Part shown: piece by piece, positions 1,916 through 19,759 of the stretch | How the letters are laid out: every line of letters begins with the position of its first letter | Numbering within the stretch: position 1 is the stretch's first letter | Virus record (IMG/VR): IMGVR_UViG_3300009488_000040 | Coordinates: 1 to 36,537 of that record | Source: a virus | DNA: 36,537 bases | Strand: one strand, 5' to 3' | Made by a program: the position numbers and the translations under genes | The notes under the pieces: model-generated | The model's input: the letters and a program-made list of their open reading frames with translations, nothing else | What the model was told of the DNA's origin: nothing | Database searches by the model: none

Positions 1916-1944
1916 TTGACTTTACACTCACTTTATGCTATACT
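1916..1944 (+). promoter_or_regulatory. Sigma-70 promoter for the early or accessory block
   Basis: TTGACT at 1916-1921 and TATACT at 1939-1944 are separated by exactly 17 bp, and TG one base before the -10 makes it an extended -10 promoter. Each hexamer differs from consensus at one position. Transcription would start near 1951 and give a leader of about 137 nt before the HNH gene. The promoter lies just outside the IS, so it belongs to the phage. Confidence 0.85.
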
Positions 1945-2030
1945 AAATAGTGGAAATCAAGCAGTTGCCAAGCTGCTATTCACATCTCGTTGGCTTGCTA
2001 CCAGCGGGAGGCTTATTGCCTGGTCTTGTT

Positions 2031-2079
2031 GCTAGTGGGTGTCCTAAGTCACCCACTAGCTCAGACCGAACTTAGGAGG
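2031..2079 (+). promoter_or_regulatory. Leader hairpin with loop complementary to the ribosome-binding site
   Basis: Bases 2031-2041 (GCTAGTGGGTG) pair perfectly with 2050-2060, forming an 11-bp stem. The 8-base loop TCCTAAGT (2042-2049) is a perfect reverse complement of ACTTAGGA (2070-2077), which overlaps the AGGAGG ribosome site (2074-2079) of the ATG at 2088. This is an H-type pseudoknot layout with a 9-nt third loop. If the whole 8-nt loop paired there would be no first-loop base, so 6-7 bp of loop pairing is more realistic. Folding would hide the ribosome site. There is no U-run after the hairpin, so it is not an obvious terminator. Confidence 0.7.
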
Positions 2080-2087
2080 CTACTGAT

Positions 2088-2645
2088 ATGACTGACCAAC
2101 CAGAAGCAAAACCAAACCCTTTAGATGCAACATATCCAGATAGATATAAGCGTGTTTGCGTACTATTGGATAAATACATTCCAGGAAGCCGTTTATTCTC
2201 AGTGGCAGATGATCCTTCACAGCCATCTGATATTGCGGCAATAAACGAGTTTGGCAACCCGACGAATCCTTTTAGTCTTTTGAAGTCCGCACTAATAGCT
2301 TATGCACAAGTAGATCAGTTTAGAAAAGAATTAAAGATAAAATATCAAGAGACCATTGATGATGAAGCTTATCTATTCTGTCTAATAGATGCTTGTAAGA
2401 AACCCGGATTCTTTGGTGGATATTCATCATATACAGAATATCTAAATTCTGAATATTGGCAACAAGTTCGCGGTGAGGCTATAGAACGAGCCGGTAGTCG
2501 CTGTATGCTATGCAATAGAAATGATTTGCCACTCCATGTTCACCACAGAACCTATGAACGATTGGGATGTGAAGAGCCTATGGATGTGATTGTATTATGT
2601 AGTTCTGATCACGCAAAATTTCATGGAAAGGACGGAACTAAATGA
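2088..2645 (+). CDS. HNH endonuclease
   Basis: This is a 185-residue nuclease of the HNH (beta-beta-alpha metal) family. The C-terminal third holds the fold: C139-x2-C142, then HVHH (H150, H152, H153) as the catalytic histidine strand, and C171, H175 and H179 completing the zinc and metal sites. The first 120 residues are not recognised and may bind DNA or the operon partners. AGGAGG at 2074-2079, 8 nt before the ATG, fixes the start. That site is the target of the leader pseudoknot, so this gene is the first whose translation would be controlled. It could be a free-standing homing endonuclease or a nuclease used in replication; the position next to a replication protein does not settle this. 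Confidence 0.85.
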   Translation: MTDQPEAKPNPLDATYPDRYKRVCVLLDKYIPGSRLFSVADDPSQPSDIAAINEFGNPTNPFSLLKSALIAYAQVDQFRKELKIKYQETIDDEAYLFCLIDACKKPGFFGGYSSYTEYLNSEYWQQVRGEAIERAGSRCMLCNRNDLPLHVHHRTYERLGCEEPMDVIVLCSSDHAKFHGKDGTK

Positions 2646-7225: not shown

Positions 7226-7254
7226 TTGACGCTGCAGACAAAGTGTGTTATATT
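7226..7254 (+). promoter_or_regulatory. Sigma-70 promoter for the morphogenesis operon
   Basis: TTGACG at 7226-7231 and TATATT at 7249-7254 are separated by exactly 17 bp. Transcription would begin near 7261, giving a leader of about 75 nt. Downstream lie the terminase and all structural genes on the same strand, with no other equally good promoter noticed before the window ends. Confidence 0.8.
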
Positions 7255-7281: not shown

Positions 7282-7333
7282 GGAGAAGGTCTGTGATATA
7301 CCCTCTGACCTTCTCCACCATAATTGAGGGTAT
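7282..7333 (+). promoter_or_regulatory. Leader hairpin with loop complementary to the ribosome-binding region
   Basis: GGAGAAGGTC (7282-7291) pairs perfectly with 7307-7316. Within the 15-nt loop, ATACCCTC (7298-7305) is the reverse complement of GAGGGTAT (7326-7333), which ends 1 nt before the ATG at 7335 and contains its only ribosome-site-like purines. The geometry is that of an H-type pseudoknot: 10-bp first stem, 6-nt first loop, 8-bp second stem, 9-nt third loop. The third loop has the same length as in the leader at 2031-2079. Confidence 0.7.
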
Positions 7334-7334
7334 C

Positions 7335-7373
7335 ATGACTTACCAGAAACCAAGATATTACAGCTATGGATGA
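7335..7373 (+). CDS. Possible 12-residue tyrosine-rich leader peptide
   Basis: The ATG at 7335 opens MTYQKPRYYSYG and a TGA at 7371-7373. Four of twelve residues are tyrosine. Its stop overlaps the ATG of the next frame (7366), so it could couple translation of that gene, which has no ribosome site of its own. GAGGG sits 4 nt upstream, a short spacing. It could be a real regulatory peptide or a chance frame; conservation would decide. Confidence 0.35.
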   Translation: MTYQKPRYYSYG

Positions 7374-7560
7374 AAAGAGAAAACGGCATACCTGTGGTGA
7401 ATGCCATAATGTGATGATTGATAAGTATTTGGCGAAGAGAGTTATATGCCGGGAGGGATACGGCTTCCGGCGGTTTACAGATAAAGCGTGTCATGCTTTC
7501 AAGGGGGAGGCCGAAGTCGGTGAATGCGAACCAAAAGAAATTTGTCAAGAATCGGATTAA
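7366..7560 (+). CDS. Small cysteine-rich protein, 64 aa
   Basis: The product begins MDEKRKRHTCGECHNVMIDKYL and has cysteines in CGEC and further on in VICREGYG, DKACHAF and EC/IC. A single zinc site is likely, as in the small zinc-ribbon proteins phages often carry. The last 41 bases overlap the chosen start of the small terminase in another frame. There is no ribosome site, so translation may depend on the short leader frame at 7335. Moderate confidence that it is expressed. Confidence 0.5.
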   Translation: MDEKRKRHTCGECHNVMIDKYLAKRVICREGYGFRRFTDKACHAFKGEAEVGECEPKEICQESD

Positions 7561-13919: not shown

Positions 13920-16451
13920 ATGGCAGTAGTATTGGATAAGATGTTCGCGCAGACAAGGATTGAGAAAGGGTCGTTTGATGACGACGAACGAAGTTTTATA
14001 GCATGGGCGTCCCGTCCAGTGCTGGATCGTGACCATGAAATTATCGCTCATGACGCATGGGATTTGGAGAACTACGAGAAAAATAAAGTCCTTCTATGGG
14101 CGCATGACTACACGCGGCCGCCCATTGGGAAAGTGCTATGGCTGAAGCCACAGAAGAACGGCCTGAAGTTCAAGCCGCAGTTTGCAGATACAGCAATGGC
14201 GAAGGAAATCTATGAGCTATACAAGGACGGTTTCATGAGTACGTTTTCTGTGGGCTTCATCCCTAACGAGTGGAATGATGACGACGAGCAAGCAAAAGAC
14301 GGGGAGGCATTCAACAGGCCGCTCAGGACTTACACTGACGTGGAACTTCTAGAAATCTCCTGCGTACCCGTTCCTTCCTGTCCCGACGCTGTGGCAGAGC
14401 GATATGCAAATGGAGAGATAAGAACGAAAGGATTGAAGACAGCCATCGAGCATTCGGTTTCCAAAACCGTGATCCCCTTCAAGAAACACAGCCTGGCTCC
14501 AGAAGACACAGCATGGAACGGGCCGGCGGAGAGATCTGCCGCAGAGGTATCCGATCTCAAGCTCATGAGTACCTGGTACGACTCTGAGAATGCAGACGTG
14601 AAAGGATCATACAAGCTCCCACATCACAAGGCCAGTGGGCACAGCACAGTATGGCGTGGAGTTGCAGCCGCTATGGTCGCTCTATTGGGAGGCCGTGGCG
14701 GGGTTGCTATACCTTCAGGCGACAAGAAGGGCGTCTATAACCACCTTGCGAAGCATTACAAGGAATTTGACAAGCCTGTGCCGGAGTTCAAGGAATACGA
14801 GGACGCTGAACTGAAGGCACTCTTCAATGAAGAGGAATTGCGTGAACAGGTTGAAGATACGGAAACTATAGAGACGTCCGCCGGCGACGTTGCTGGAGGC
14901 TGGGAGCCTGTTGAGATAGAGGAGCGCGACCCCATAGAAGCCATGAGGCGCGAAGGGCTTGAGAAGGCTGAGGATGGTTTTATCCCGGTATCTGTGAGCA
15001 TGTGGAATGAGATGTGTTCAACCGTGAAGGTTGCCAGTGCAAAATCAGACGCCTATCTCCAGCAAGTGTATGGAGGCATTACTCCGCCAGATGGGAAGTG
15101 GAATAAAAGCCTGTCTGACGCATTCGACCTGCCGGTTCTGGAGGACGTAACCTCGTCGTTCAAATACACGCTATATGCTGATTATCTGAGTTGTGAGATT
15201 AAGAACATATACATGAACAGCTACGAGATTCCATCCCCATTGCTGGGTTCTTATATGGATGCTATCCAGAGACTGACTGCTGATTTCACCGTCCACGATA
15301 TTCGGCGCTTTTCCAGTAAAGGCGAAGAGACACCCCCTATCACTGATAAAATACAGTTGACCCGGGATGAGTATGGCGAATATCTCGTTAGCGGTACAAA
15401 GTTCTGCGAGGCTGATGGCTATAATATCATTCTAAACTTTTCGGCGAGTTGGTATGGCCTGGACTTCAGTGTGATTACGTCCGCAGAAAAAGCAGACGCA
15501 AATCGTGAAATTCTGAATGGGATTCATAAGGACGCGTCTGGAAACGTCATGATGAAGGGCGAGAAGTTTTCCCTCTCCGGTGAGTTCCTGGACCCCACGG
15601 ACGAGGTATGGGATGACGTTGTAATACCAGACGAAGACAAGACGGCTATCCGTAAGTCTATGAGCGTTCTGGAAGACGGCAAGAGCCGCGGGCTACTGAT
15701 GGTCGGCCCTCCAGGAACTGGCAAGACAATGACCGGGCGCATAATGATGAACGTCACAGAGTCAACCTACATCTGGGTAAGCTCCAGGGACTTCGGCTAT
15801 TCCGCTTCGTCGCGGATCATCAACCTGGCTTTCAACATGGCAAGACGGCTGGCTCCCACGATCCTATTCATGGAGGACATTGACGGGTGGCTGGGCGGCG
15901 GCTCTACTGATGCTATGAAGACAGAGATGGATGGCATTCGCGCCACAAAGGGGGTTATGAGCGTACTCACGACAAACTTCCCCCAGAGATTGCCGAAGGC
16001 CTTGATAGATAGGCCGGGACGTTTCCACCATGTCATACTCTTTGATCTCCCCGATGTTAAGCAGAGACATCAGATGCTTGCAACATGGACGGATGGCGTT
16101 GACAAAGAAACTCTGATCGACATAGCGAAAAAGACGGAAGGATTCTCAGGAGCGCATATACGGGAGCTGGTTGACTACGCTGAATTTATATCTGACGAGG
16201 AGGGCATCCCTACAGGGAAGGCTCTGGTTCGAAGCATGGAGAAATTGCAGGAACAGCGCGAACTCGTTGCCAGTTTCGATACTGAGAAAGGCCCGGCTCC
16301 TGATATGATCGAATACACCGACGAGGATTTTGACCTCATGGTTCAGCAGGAATTGAAAATAAAAAAGCAAGCCGAGGCGATAAAATCCCTTCGGCACGAT
16401 ATTGCAGTCCTCAACGCGAAAATGAGGGTTGCGCTAGGCGGGACTGGATAA
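13920..16451 (+). CDS. Prohead protease fused to an AAA+ ATPase
   Basis: This is an 843-residue fusion. Residues 1-165 are an HK97-type prohead protease: WASRPVLDRDHE, catalytic H62 in LLWAHDYTRPPIGK, S110 in MSTFSVGFIP, then ELLEISCVPVPS. Residues about 198-285 (AWNGPAERS, GSYKLPHH, GGVAIPSGDKKGVYNHLAKHY) are a domain often attached to phage proteases or minor head proteins. An unassigned region spans 330-580. Residues 590-780 are an AAA+ module: Walker A GPPGTGKT at 596-603, Walker B ILFMEDID at 648-655, sensor-1 LTTN, the RPGRF arginine-finger region at 698-702, and sensor-2 GFSGAHIRELV. The C-terminus is a helical coil. The protease should cut head proteins during maturation. The ATPase may unfold or feed substrates, as in FtsH or Lon. 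The frame is continuous with no sign of a sequencing join. Confidence 0.9.
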   Translation: MAVVLDKMFAQTRIEKGSFDDDERSFIAWASRPVLDRDHEIIAHDAWDLENYEKNKVLLWAHDYTRPPIGKVLWLKPQKNGLKFKPQFADTAMAKEIYELYKDGFMSTFSVGFIPNEWNDDDEQAKDGEAFNRPLRTYTDVELLEISCVPVPSCPDAVAERYANGEIRTKGLKTAIEHSVSKTVIPFKKHSLAPEDTAWNGPAERSAAEVSDLKLMSTWYDSENADVKGSYKLPHHKASGHSTVWRGVAAAMVALLGGRGGVAIPSGDKKGVYNHLAKHYKEFDKPVPEFKEYEDAELKALFNEEELREQVEDTETIETSAGDVAGGWEPVEIEERDPIEAMRREGLEKAEDGFIPVSVSMWNEMCSTVKVASAKSDAYLQQVYGGITPPDGKWNKSLSDAFDLPVLEDVTSSFKYTLYADYLSCEIKNIYMNSYEIPSPLLGSYMDAIQRLTADFTVHDIRRFSSKGEETPPITDKIQLTRDEYGEYLVSGTKFCEADGYNIILNFSASWYGLDFSVITSAEKADANREILNGIHKDASGNVMMKGEKFSLSGEFLDPTDEVWDDVVIPDEDKTAIRKSMSVLEDGKSRGLLMVGPPGTGKTMTGRIMMNVTESTYIWVSSRDFGYSASSRIINLAFNMARRLAPTILFMEDIDGWLGGGSTDAMKTEMDGIRATKGVMSVLTTNFPQRLPKALIDRPGRFHHVILFDLPDVKQRHQMLATWTDGVDKETLIDIAKKTEGFSGAHIRELVDYAEFISDEEGIPTGKALVRSMEKLQEQRELVASFDTEKGPAPDMIEYTDEDFDLMVQQELKIKKQAEAIKSLRHDIAVLNAKMRVALGGTG

Positions 16452-16598: not shown

Positions 16599-17972
16599 AT
16601 GCCACAAGCAACACCGGAAGAACTGAAAAAGAAACTTGATGAGCAGGTTGATAAACTTAATAACAAGGAATACGAGACGCCCACTGAACTCATGGAAATC
16701 AAAAAGAAAATGGGCGTCAATACCGACGAGTTGTCACCCGACTCGATAGACCTTCTCGCTGCGGACGTTGATGAGATGAAGAAATCCCTCGACGACCTCA
16801 TTGAGAAGCAGAAGGAAGCTACTGGCGACCTCCCTGTGAAAGAGCCAGACCTTCTGGAGGGTGCTCATCTTGGCGGACTGTTCAAGGAACTTCGCGAAGC
16901 TACGCATTACGGCAAGGCTGAAGGGCCGATACTCAGGTCAATGGAATTGACGCCCGATCAGCTAAAATCTGATGGCGTGGTAGTCCCTGAGAAGCTAATG
17001 AGGGCATTTTGGAACTCCGCGCTTAAGACTACTGGCTATCTGGAAGAGGGTCAGGGGTCGTTAGGCGGCTTCACAGTCGCTGAACAGTTTGTGCCAACAC
17101 TGTTGTCGATCCCACTCCAGGAGCCAATCGTCCGGTCAAGAGCCTGGAACATACCTACAACCACCAACGTCATCAAAATCCCCCGCATAAATGACACCAC
17201 CCATGCCGAGAATGTGTATGGCGGTGTTACGGGAAACTGGACGGCTGAGGGCGCTTCAATAAGCGTCTCGAACCCGGCATTTGCTCAGTGTGTCCTCATG
17301 GCAAAGAAGCTGGCACTTCTGACTTATGCCAGCAATGAGCTGCTTGAGGATAACGCTGTGGGCCTCAACCAGGTTCTGACGAGGCTGTTCGCGGAAGCTC
17401 TGGGGTGGTTTGAGGATAAGGCGTTCATCAAAGGCTCCGGCGTGAATGAGCCGCTGGGTCTCCTGAATGCTCCCTGTCTGGATAGCGTAAGCATCGCAAC
17501 TGGCTCGGTGTTCCGCATCGAGGATGCTTGCAAGATGTATGCGAATCTGCTTCCAGGGTCTGAAGCCCGGGCAATCTGGATCATGAACCCCAGCGTCAAG
17601 CAAGCGTTGCCTCAGATGCTCACTCTGGGAAGTGCTACCGCAGGCGCTCCAAACATCTGGTATCCTGCTGCCCTGAGCATCAAGGATTCTCCAGAACCGT
17701 GGAGGCTCCTGGGCATTCCCATCTTTTGGTCAGAACATCTCGCGGCATTGGGTACTGACCAGGACGTAATTCTCACTGACCTGAGCTATTACATCCTGAT
17801 GAGCAGGCAAGGCATCAGGGCGTCTGTATCCACAGAATCGCGCTTTGCCAACGATGAGACTGGCTATAAGCTGACTGAGCGAACTGATGGGCAGCCGTGG
17901 CCATCTTCGACACTAACACTGGCGGATGGTGCAACCACCGTCTCCCCCATTGTGGCTTCTGATCATGCTTAG
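16599..17972 (+). CDS. Major capsid protein 1 (HK97 fold, with delta domain)
   Basis: The protein is 457 residues; AGAGGTGA at 16585-16592 lies 6 nt upstream of the ATG. Residues 1-135 are highly charged and helical (ELKKKLDEQVDKLNNKEYE, DEMKKSLDDLIEKQKE), the scaffolding delta domain that HK97-type proteases remove. The mature part begins near KTTGYLEEGQGSLGGFTV (143 onward) and has the HK97 features: N-arm, long helix region with LTYASNELLEDNAVGLNQVLTRLFAEALGWFEDKAFIKGSG, and the C-terminal P-domain end with LMSRQGIRASVS and ERTDGQPW. Hundreds of copies form the shell. It has no serine tail, unlike its paralog downstream. Confidence 0.93.
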   Translation: MPQATPEELKKKLDEQVDKLNNKEYETPTELMEIKKKMGVNTDELSPDSIDLLAADVDEMKKSLDDLIEKQKEATGDLPVKEPDLLEGAHLGGLFKELREATHYGKAEGPILRSMELTPDQLKSDGVVVPEKLMRAFWNSALKTTGYLEEGQGSLGGFTVAEQFVPTLLSIPLQEPIVRSRAWNIPTTTNVIKIPRINDTTHAENVYGGVTGNWTAEGASISVSNPAFAQCVLMAKKLALLTYASNELLEDNAVGLNQVLTRLFAEALGWFEDKAFIKGSGVNEPLGLLNAPCLDSVSIATGSVFRIEDACKMYANLLPGSEARAIWIMNPSVKQALPQMLTLGSATAGAPNIWYPAALSIKDSPEPWRLLGIPIFWSEHLAALGTDQDVILTDLSYYILMSRQGIRASVSTESRFANDETGYKLTERTDGQPWPSSTLTLADGATTVSPIVASDHA

Positions 17973-17979: not shown

Positions 17980-18004
17980 CTCAACAACACAGGGGGTGAG
18001 TTTT

Positions 18005-19216
18005 ATGACTATGAAATTTGGCGAGTTTCTAAAGAATGTTTTTGAATACTCTAAAGGCAGCACTGACGCATCCAAAGCCTTAGAGGGCTATAGAGCTAAG
18101 ACCACCGGATACTTAGAGGAGGATCAAGGCTCGATGGGTGGGTTTACAGTGCCGGAGGAGACGTACAAAAGCATCATGGATCTCGCTTTGGAGAATAGTA
18201 TAGTCAGACCCCGCGCAACGATTGTGCAGATGGAGAGCAATGTGATCGGTATCTCCAGAATCGTAGATACTACACATGCGTCAAGTGTGCTGGGAGGCGT
18301 CACTGTAACGTGGACAAACGAAGGCGACGCTATGAGCGAAAGCAACCCGGCACTCGGGCAGCTAGTTTTAAGAGCGAAGGGACTGAAGGGACTCTGCTAC
18401 ACCTCCAGCGAATGGCTGGAGGATTCGGGAGTTCCACCGGAGGATCTGCTGAGACAAGCCTTTGGTCAGGCCATTGGCTTCTATGCAGATGACGAGTACA
18501 TTAACGGAACTGGGGTCACGAGGCCGCTGGGTATTCTAAACAGCGGTGCGCTGATCCCTGTGACCAGAGCCGGAACCGCCTTAGCGTGGGGAGACATAGT
18601 GAATATGGACGCCAGGCTGCTCCCCAGGTCGGAGAAGAAGGCAATCTGGGTCATGAACTCGGAGGCAAAGCCCAGTATCTATGGGCTGTCACCGGGTTCC
18701 GGCTGGGTTTCTGAAGGGAAGATACTCAACAAGGACTATGAAATCTCTGAAAAGCTGCCAAGCTGGGGTCATTCCGGCGACGTTCTTCTGGCAGATTTCA
18801 GTGAGTATTGCATAGGAGACAGGGACTTGATTATCCAGGCGTCCAGCGCGTATGCGTTTGCCACTGATAATATCGCCTGGAAGTTCATATTGAGGACTGA
18901 CGGAGCGCCAATTCCGGCGGCTCCGGTGACACCCAAGAACGGGTCAAGAACGCAGTCGCCGTTCATAATTTTGAGCGGTGGAGTGAGTTCTTCATCCGGC
19001 AGCGAATCTTCAAGCTCGACAAGTGAGAGTTCGTATTCGCTGAGTTCGTCATCGAGCAGTTCGTCAACATCTTCGAGCTCCTCCTCCTCGTCGTCATCCA
19101 GTTCTTCGGAATCGGTTTCAAGTTCCTCCTCATCGAGTTCAGAATCGGTGTCGAGTTCTAGCAGCTCGTCCTCCAGCTCTTCAAGCTCGTCTTCAAGTTC
19201 TAGCGCAGGGGCATGA
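18005..19216 (+). CDS. Major capsid protein 2: HK97-fold paralog without delta domain, with serine-rich tail
   Basis: The ATG at 18005 follows GGGGG by 8 nt (an in-frame GTG at 17996 overlaps that site), giving 403 residues. From residue 32 it is clearly homologous to capsid 1: KTTGYLEEDQGSMGGFTV, IVDTTHASSVLGGVTVTWTNEG, YTSSEWLEDSGVPPEDLLRQAFGQAIGFYADDEYINGTGVTRPLGILN. Only about 31 residues precede the homology, so the roughly 140-residue scaffolding domain of capsid 1 is missing. The C-terminus (327-399) is a tract with 62 serines in 73 residues, then AGA. It may co-assemble with capsid 1, or form vertices as gp24 does in phage T4, and display serine tails outward. Location and stoichiometry are inference. 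Confidence 0.9.
   Translation: MTMKFGEFLKNVFEYSKGSTDASKALEGYRAKTTGYLEEDQGSMGGFTVPEETYKSIMDLALENSIVRPRATIVQMESNVIGISRIVDTTHASSVLGGVTVTWTNEGDAMSESNPALGQLVLRAKGLKGLCYTSSEWLEDSGVPPEDLLRQAFGQAIGFYADDEYINGTGVTRPLGILNSGALIPVTRAGTALAWGDIVNMDARLLPRSEKKAIWVMNSEAKPSIYGLSPGSGWVSEGKILNKDYEISEKLPSWGHSGDVLLADFSEYCIGDRDLIIQASSAYAFATDNIAWKFILRTDGAPIPAAPVTPKNGSRTQSPFIILSGGVSSSSGSESSSSTSESSYSLSSSSSSSSTSSSSSSSSSSSSSESVSSSSSSSSESVSSSSSSSSSSSSSSSSSSAGA
18986..19204 (+). repeat. Serine-rich tail tract of capsid 2
   Basis: There are 73 codons, 62 of them serine, broken by Gly, Thr, Tyr, Leu and by Glu-Ser-Val units (SESVSSSS occurs twice). All six serine codons are mixed without a short DNA period, so selection acts on the amino acid sequence. 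The long acidic frame on the opposite strand is its shadow. Confidence 0.9.
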
Positions 19217-19685: not shown

Positions 19686-19759
19686 GGAGATTGGGCGGCT
19701 GGTGGGACTGTCCAGTTCCATCTCCACCAGTCGCTCATCATTACACAGGGGGAATGAGT

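Follow-up and report, generated by a model that had tools for sequence, protein, structure and literature searches.

Candidate Pseudoknots over the Shine-Dalgarno Sites of Two Gene Clusters in an Unclassified Tailed Phage

Introduction

Hiding the ribosome-binding site is a known device by which phages time the translation of their genes. The leader of an HNH endonuclease-like gene in a tailed-phage contig raises the question of whether such hiding can also be brought about by the loop of an upstream hairpin, which would pair with the Shine-Dalgarno (SD) segment and close a pseudoknot over it. The best reading that we can offer, probable though not assured, is that this leader and a second one in the same genome form H-type pseudoknots acting in cis as translational brakes, which would hide the SD at two gene clusters. 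The well-studied phage cases of SD hiding make use of simple hairpins, and a review of phages from 2010 contained one translational pseudoknot (PMC3014915). If the reading is correct, the genome would possess, in its two matched loop-to-SD pseudoknots, a compact and sequence-flexible means of delaying translation, and a search rule for finding more of them would follow: a strong hairpin after a promoter, with a loop complementary to the next SD.

The window, that is, the whole stretch of DNA analyzed, is a 36,537-base IMG/VR virus record derived from a tailed phage, in which terminase, portal, head morphogenesis, capsid and tape-measure genes are recognizable; the contig is unclassified. Both leaders and the genes behind them lie on the + strand. 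An insertion sequence (207–1899) with a 482-aa DDE transposase and 17-bp terminal inverted repeats precedes the first leader, flanked by a 6-bp target duplication (AAGGCA, at 201–206 and 1900–1905); transposase relatives were not found in genome_contigs. It splits a short ORF (from 107), perhaps a gene remnant, which amounts to only 37 codons when the empty site is read through. The −35 box at 1916 lies 10 bp past the target duplication and 16 bp past the end of the insertion sequence, which places the promoter on the phage side of the junction.

The Leader of the HNH Gene

The first promoter-like site (1916–1944) comprises TTGACT at 1916–1921, a 17-bp spacer and TATACT at 1939–1944, with TGC ahead of the −10 box (extended −10). 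If active, it would start transcription near 1951, giving a structured 5′ leader of about 137 nt (1951–2087) with several predicted hairpins ahead of the putative pseudoknot. Extended promoters scoring at least 10/12 number two on the + strand and none on the − strand, the shuffled expectation being 0.27 per strand; taken alone, the promoter of leader 1 is modest, good but not remarkable. The structure of interest begins with stem S1, whose 5′ arm GCTAGTGGGTG (2031–2041) and 3′ arm CACCCACTAGC (2050–2060) are perfectly complementary over 11 bp and enclose the 8-nt loop TCCTAAGT (2042–2049). This loop is the exact reverse complement of ACTTAGGA at 2070–2077, which lies across a 9-nt connector (L3, TCAGACCGA, 2061–2069) and covers the AGGA of the SD AGGAGG (2074–2079). 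An 8-nt spacer leads from there to the ATG at 2088. A sequence-only reading of this DNA had described this promoter, the 11-bp hairpin and the 8-nt complement of its loop, and direct reading bears out all three, with their coordinates, to the base. The gene so preceded (2088–2645) encodes 185 aa with an HNH domain at the C terminus (PHROGs, NCBIfam), and overlaps the next ORF by four bases (2642–2645); no relatives of the HNH protein were confirmed in viral_contigs or genome_contigs.

A Second Element Ahead of the Packaging Genes

The extended-promoter scan, which made no use of structure, also led to TTGACG-17-TATATT at 7226–7254, with an extended −10. Behind it stands a second element, recognized after the first was known, in which a 10-bp perfect hairpin is formed by GGAGAAGGTC (7282–7291) and GACCTTCTCC (7307–7316). 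Within its 15-nt loop (7292–7306), the segment ATACCCTC (7298–7305) is the exact reverse complement of GAGGGTAT (7326–7333), which follows a 9-nt connector (ACCATAATT, 7317–7325) and overlaps the SD-like GAGGG of the purine-rich site directly before the ATG at 7335, ahead of the packaging genes. This start codon opens only a 12-codon ORF (7335–7373), at a short SD-to-ATG spacing; its stop overlaps the start of an ORF at 7366–7560, which sits upstream of the terminase genes. Leaders 1 and 2 have in common a potential 8-bp second helix (S2) and the 9-nt connector, their sequences being unrelated and without similarity in connector or loop. Each motif is reached within 90 nt after one of the two extended promoters of at least 10/12, of which the window has no others. 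In this sense, the recurrence of the architecture with a different sequence is an independent replicate, read from sequence, and the nearest available thing to covariation evidence. The loop-to-SD pairing that the earlier reading had proposed for hiding the ribosome-binding site thus gains support from a second, sequence-different copy in the same genome; the small-molecule riboswitch that it had associated with this pairing is not supported, as discussed below.

The ORF at 7366–7560, between this leader and the terminase genes, encodes a 64-aa cysteine-rich protein (CxxC), for which tblastn gave no phage match. Small zinc-binding phage proteins, such as Com of Mu, are translational regulators, and by analogy it is conceivable that the 64-aa protein could serve as a trans factor for the pseudoknot leaders.

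Folding Energetics and Proposed Mechanism

The leader of the HNH operon would fold as an H-type pseudoknot, in which the loop of the 11-bp hairpin S1 pairs with ACUUAGGA by 7 or 8 bp (S2) across the 9-nt connector. With all eight S2 pairs, zero nucleotides are left for L1, and the 8-bp helix would be strained; without the U2042 pair, S2 keeps 7 bp, L1 gains 1 nt and the AGG of the SD is still covered, which appears more realistic and would make the pseudoknot only marginally favored at best. The geometry modelled for leader 2 (L1 of 6 nt, L2 of 1 nt, L3 of 9 nt) is comfortable. In an approximate calculation, based on Turner stacks and on loop penalties assumed to be 6–12 kcal/mol, the energy of the pseudoknot minus that of the nested ensemble is −3.4 to +2.6 kcal/mol for the 8-bp form of leader 1, −2.5 to +3.5 kcal/mol for its 7-bp form, and −5.0 to +1.0 kcal/mol for leader 2. 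In these estimates, which do not favor either state decisively, both are reachable, the open and the pseudoknotted form of leader 1 lying within a few kcal/mol of each other.

In the nested minimum-energy fold of leader 1, the SD is mostly open and a lower stem is formed between GGUCU (2023–2027) and AGACC (2063–2067). As this stem leaves a connector of 2 nt, it should on geometric grounds exclude the pseudoknot; the two compete, and leader 1 may therefore be a two-state switch, alternating between the lower stem with the SD open and the pseudoknot with the SD hidden. The latter state, by covering part of the SD, would reduce the access of ribosomes to the HNH gene, and since this ORF overlaps the following one by four bases, the overlapping stop and start may carry the block at the HNH start to the next gene. 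The brake could be released by ribosomes that come from upstream, by a trans-acting protein, or through simple equilibrium, and control of leader 1 by a phage protein, also suggested in the sequence-only reading, is possible. Given that the second element follows the other strong promoter and heads the packaging genes, the phage seems to use SD pseudoknots as general cis-acting translational brakes. A bolder extension, speculative and in our view more doubtful than not, is that both main operons are gated by translation via architecturally matched, sequence-unrelated SD pseudoknots. Their opening would be due to ribosomes, or else to a single phage factor acting on both and recognizing their fold, not their sequence.

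Opening by ribosomes would turn each leader into an attenuator, a particular form of the brake: a short upstream ORF would run through S1 and S2, and its translation would melt the pseudoknot and couple to the main start, the release being due to the translating ribosome, as in plasmid repZ or erm leader-peptide control. Short upstream ORFs are present in both leaders, from TTG 2016 to TAG 2075 and from GTG 7293 to TGA 7373, each with a purine-rich site ahead of it (GGAGG at 2007–2011, AAGGAG from 7280). The one in leader 1 (2016–2075, 19 codons) passes through S1 and has its stop inside the SD segment. It is a weak candidate. The starts of the two ORFs are TTG and GTG, only 4 nt separate the purine-rich site from the start codon in leader 1, the SDs of both are in or adjoining predicted stems, and short ORFs with purine-rich sites are common by chance. 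We regard this variant as unlikely. In plasmid ColIb-P9, a system attributed to Asano and Mizobuchi 1998 (a work listed in PMC10724649), the hairpin loop of repZ reportedly pairs near the start site of the gene, and the structures are overlapped by a leader ORF; that pseudoknot is said to activate translation, with an antisense RNA competing for it. Unlike this system, the pairing in the phage covers the SD, and antisense promoter-like sites were not found within 300 bp.

Chance Expectation of the Architecture

It could also be that the hairpins are ordinary stable 5′ structures, serving mRNA protection or spacing, and that the match between loop and SD is coincidental, with no regulation by a pseudoknot. 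Stable 5′ hairpins are indeed common, complements of an SD are easily found, and the nested fold of leader 1 is stable by itself. The frequency of the full arrangement nevertheless speaks against coincidence. When 1951–2069 was shuffled 80,000 times with the SD kept, a stem of at least 8 bp together with a loop:SD match of at least 6 nt arose 12 times (about 1.5e-4 for one leader), and a match of at least 7 nt 4 times. The hairpin of leader 1 is the only perfect one in the window with at least 11 bp and a loop of 5–10 (0 in 30 whole-window shuffles). Out of 787 starts preceded by an SD, taken from 379 kb made up of this window and other phage DNA, only that of leader 1 has a loop:SD match longer than 5 nt. 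Furthermore, of 809 segments of 140 nt, the one beginning at 1936 folds with the lowest energy and ranks second by z-score (−5.95); over 1951–2120 the z-score is −3.85. The arrangement of leader 1 is well beyond chance.

The second line of evidence against coincidence is that two such elements stand at the two best promoters of one genome. A mechanical scan of the whole window (perfect stem of at least 7, loop pairing of at least 7 nt, within 35 nt; thresholds chosen along the way) returned, for the + strand, just two pseudoknot motifs with perfect stems, of 10 and 11 bp; two further rows of its output were the same two repeats read in the opposite direction. In 100 shuffles, 0.39 motifs per strand appeared at a stem of at least 7 and 0 at a stem of at least 10. 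With SD overlap required and G-U pairs allowed, there were two on the + strand and 0 on the −, for a shuffle mean of 0.175. When applied to 506 kb of other phage DNA, the same scan yielded a single match, weaker and with an 8-bp stem, and the motif was not found in a further 105 kb of control DNA including two terminase relatives; the control is conservative, since part of it was fetched by a pattern favoring matches. Taken together, these frequencies leave the coincidental reading with a small probability. A third stem/loop match in the window, at 19689, needs G-U pairs and does not overlap an SD; located where a reading frame begins, it was taken as chance.

Alternatives Acting on Transcription or Through a Ligand

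The position of both structures directly after promoters would also be compatible with a transcription-level element, either an RNA acting on RNA polymerase, like the put antitermination RNAs of HK022, or a DNA palindrome serving as operator or origin, for which S1 of leader 1, a perfect 11-bp inverted repeat, would be suited. Against a site for one protein, leaders 1 and 2 have no sequence in common; against an operator, the only exact copies of the leader 1 half-site are the two S1 arms themselves, and interleaved ABA′B′ repeats ending on the SD would not be expected. This possibility is accordingly improbable. An intrinsic terminator or attenuator was rejected: neither stem is followed by a run of T, so that the stems are not terminators, and the + strand has no terminator-like site at 1700–2700.

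The least probable of the readings, and a very unlikely one, is a ligand-binding riboswitch of the small pseudoknot type. The preQ1, SAM-II and SAM/SAH riboswitches place the SD in the second pseudoknot helix (PMC11625349, PMC7367207), a sequence logic that is found at both phage elements as read from their complementarity. These elements differ, however, in having no aptamer sequence and no Rfam match: at E ≤ 10 no family rose above chance, the matches being of chance level, such as eukaryotic miRNAs. Leader 1 is almost devoid of unpaired nucleotides from which a pocket could be built, and the two elements have no connector or loop sequence in common. From the lack of shared unpaired sequence and of an Rfam match, a common sequence-specific ligand appears unlikely, and the riboswitch logic of the sequence-only reading is not sustained.

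Homologous leaders were not found in viral, phage or plasmid collections. The hairpin pattern of leader 1 gave no match in viral_contigs, and blastn with this leader against phages and plasmids returned short chance matches only. Searches of viral_contigs with the HNH protein, the ORF at 2642 and the terminase found no relatives; a capsid search there gave two fragments and one distant record, none of them carrying the leader, and the terminase relatives examined are without the pseudoknot motif. The looser pattern TCCTAAGT...ACTTAGGAGG had 13 matches in viral_contigs, none with the outer stem and most from one group. Several of the loci recovered in this way (L003, L004, L008, L011, L013–L015) are related, and each possesses TCCTAAGT...ACTTAGGAGG with more CTAAG/CTTAG repeats upstream of it, the whole standing immediately ahead of a start codon; to judge from the repeats, these look like the operator array of a regulator, overlapping an SD.

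Comparison With Known Systems

Broadly, the two elements would work as a cross of endonuclease SD hiding, the gene 32 pseudoknot and the SD-pairing riboswitches, and they lack one or more of the defining features tested for every type. The homing endonucleases of T4-like phages (I-TevI, I-TevII, I-TevIII, segB and mobE of Aeh1, the last an HNH gene with SD hiding) have their SD hidden by a stable leader RNA. There, the stem of a simple hairpin takes up the SD, which is left free in transcripts from a late promoter located within the structure (PMC2988022). The I-TevI leader, when refolded, also had its SD inside a stem. The likeness, judged from sequence, is that of a phage endonuclease-like gene whose SD may be hidden by a stable leader structure. 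Unlike in those cases, the predicted partner of the SD is here the loop of a hairpin that precedes it, the complementarity of leader 1 being exact and able to hide the SD only as a pseudoknot; the promoter is upstream of the whole structure, and the design also heads an operon that is not that of an endonuclease. A late promoter within the structure of leader 1 was not found, the sole promoter-like site on the + strand in 1700–2700 being that at 1916, in a search that would miss late promoters not of the sigma70 type. In seg43 of Aeromonas phage 25, a hairpin of great stability immediately precedes the SD of the endonuclease gene (PMC2988022); it was considered as a possible published sister and rejected, its loop GATAAA not being complementary to the SD.

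The pseudoknot in the leader of T4 gene 32, located 67 nt upstream of the start codon, nucleates the binding of gp32, and in 2010 was described as possibly the sole viral example in translational autoregulation (PMC3014915). It resembles the present elements as a pseudoknot in a phage mRNA leader controlling translation (here predicted), and differs from them in being formed without SD pairing, whereas S2 overlaps the SD here. The arrangement of gene 32, an SD-distant pseudoknot followed by an A+U-rich cooperative site, is not that of leader 1, in which the connector is TCAGACCGA.

Other Features of the Genome

Some further observations concern the structural genes of the phage. An 843-aa ORF (13920–16451) joins a head maturation protease-like N terminus to an ATPase-like C terminus. 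Two tandem major-capsid-like genes (16599–17972 and 17996–19216) match the same PHROG; the related fragments L016 and L017 also carry the two side by side. The second of these genes has a serine-rich C-terminal tail (18980–19216). No stretch of the genome has a better folding z-score than the 140 nt from 18901 (−5.97), which begin shortly ahead of this tail and extend into it.
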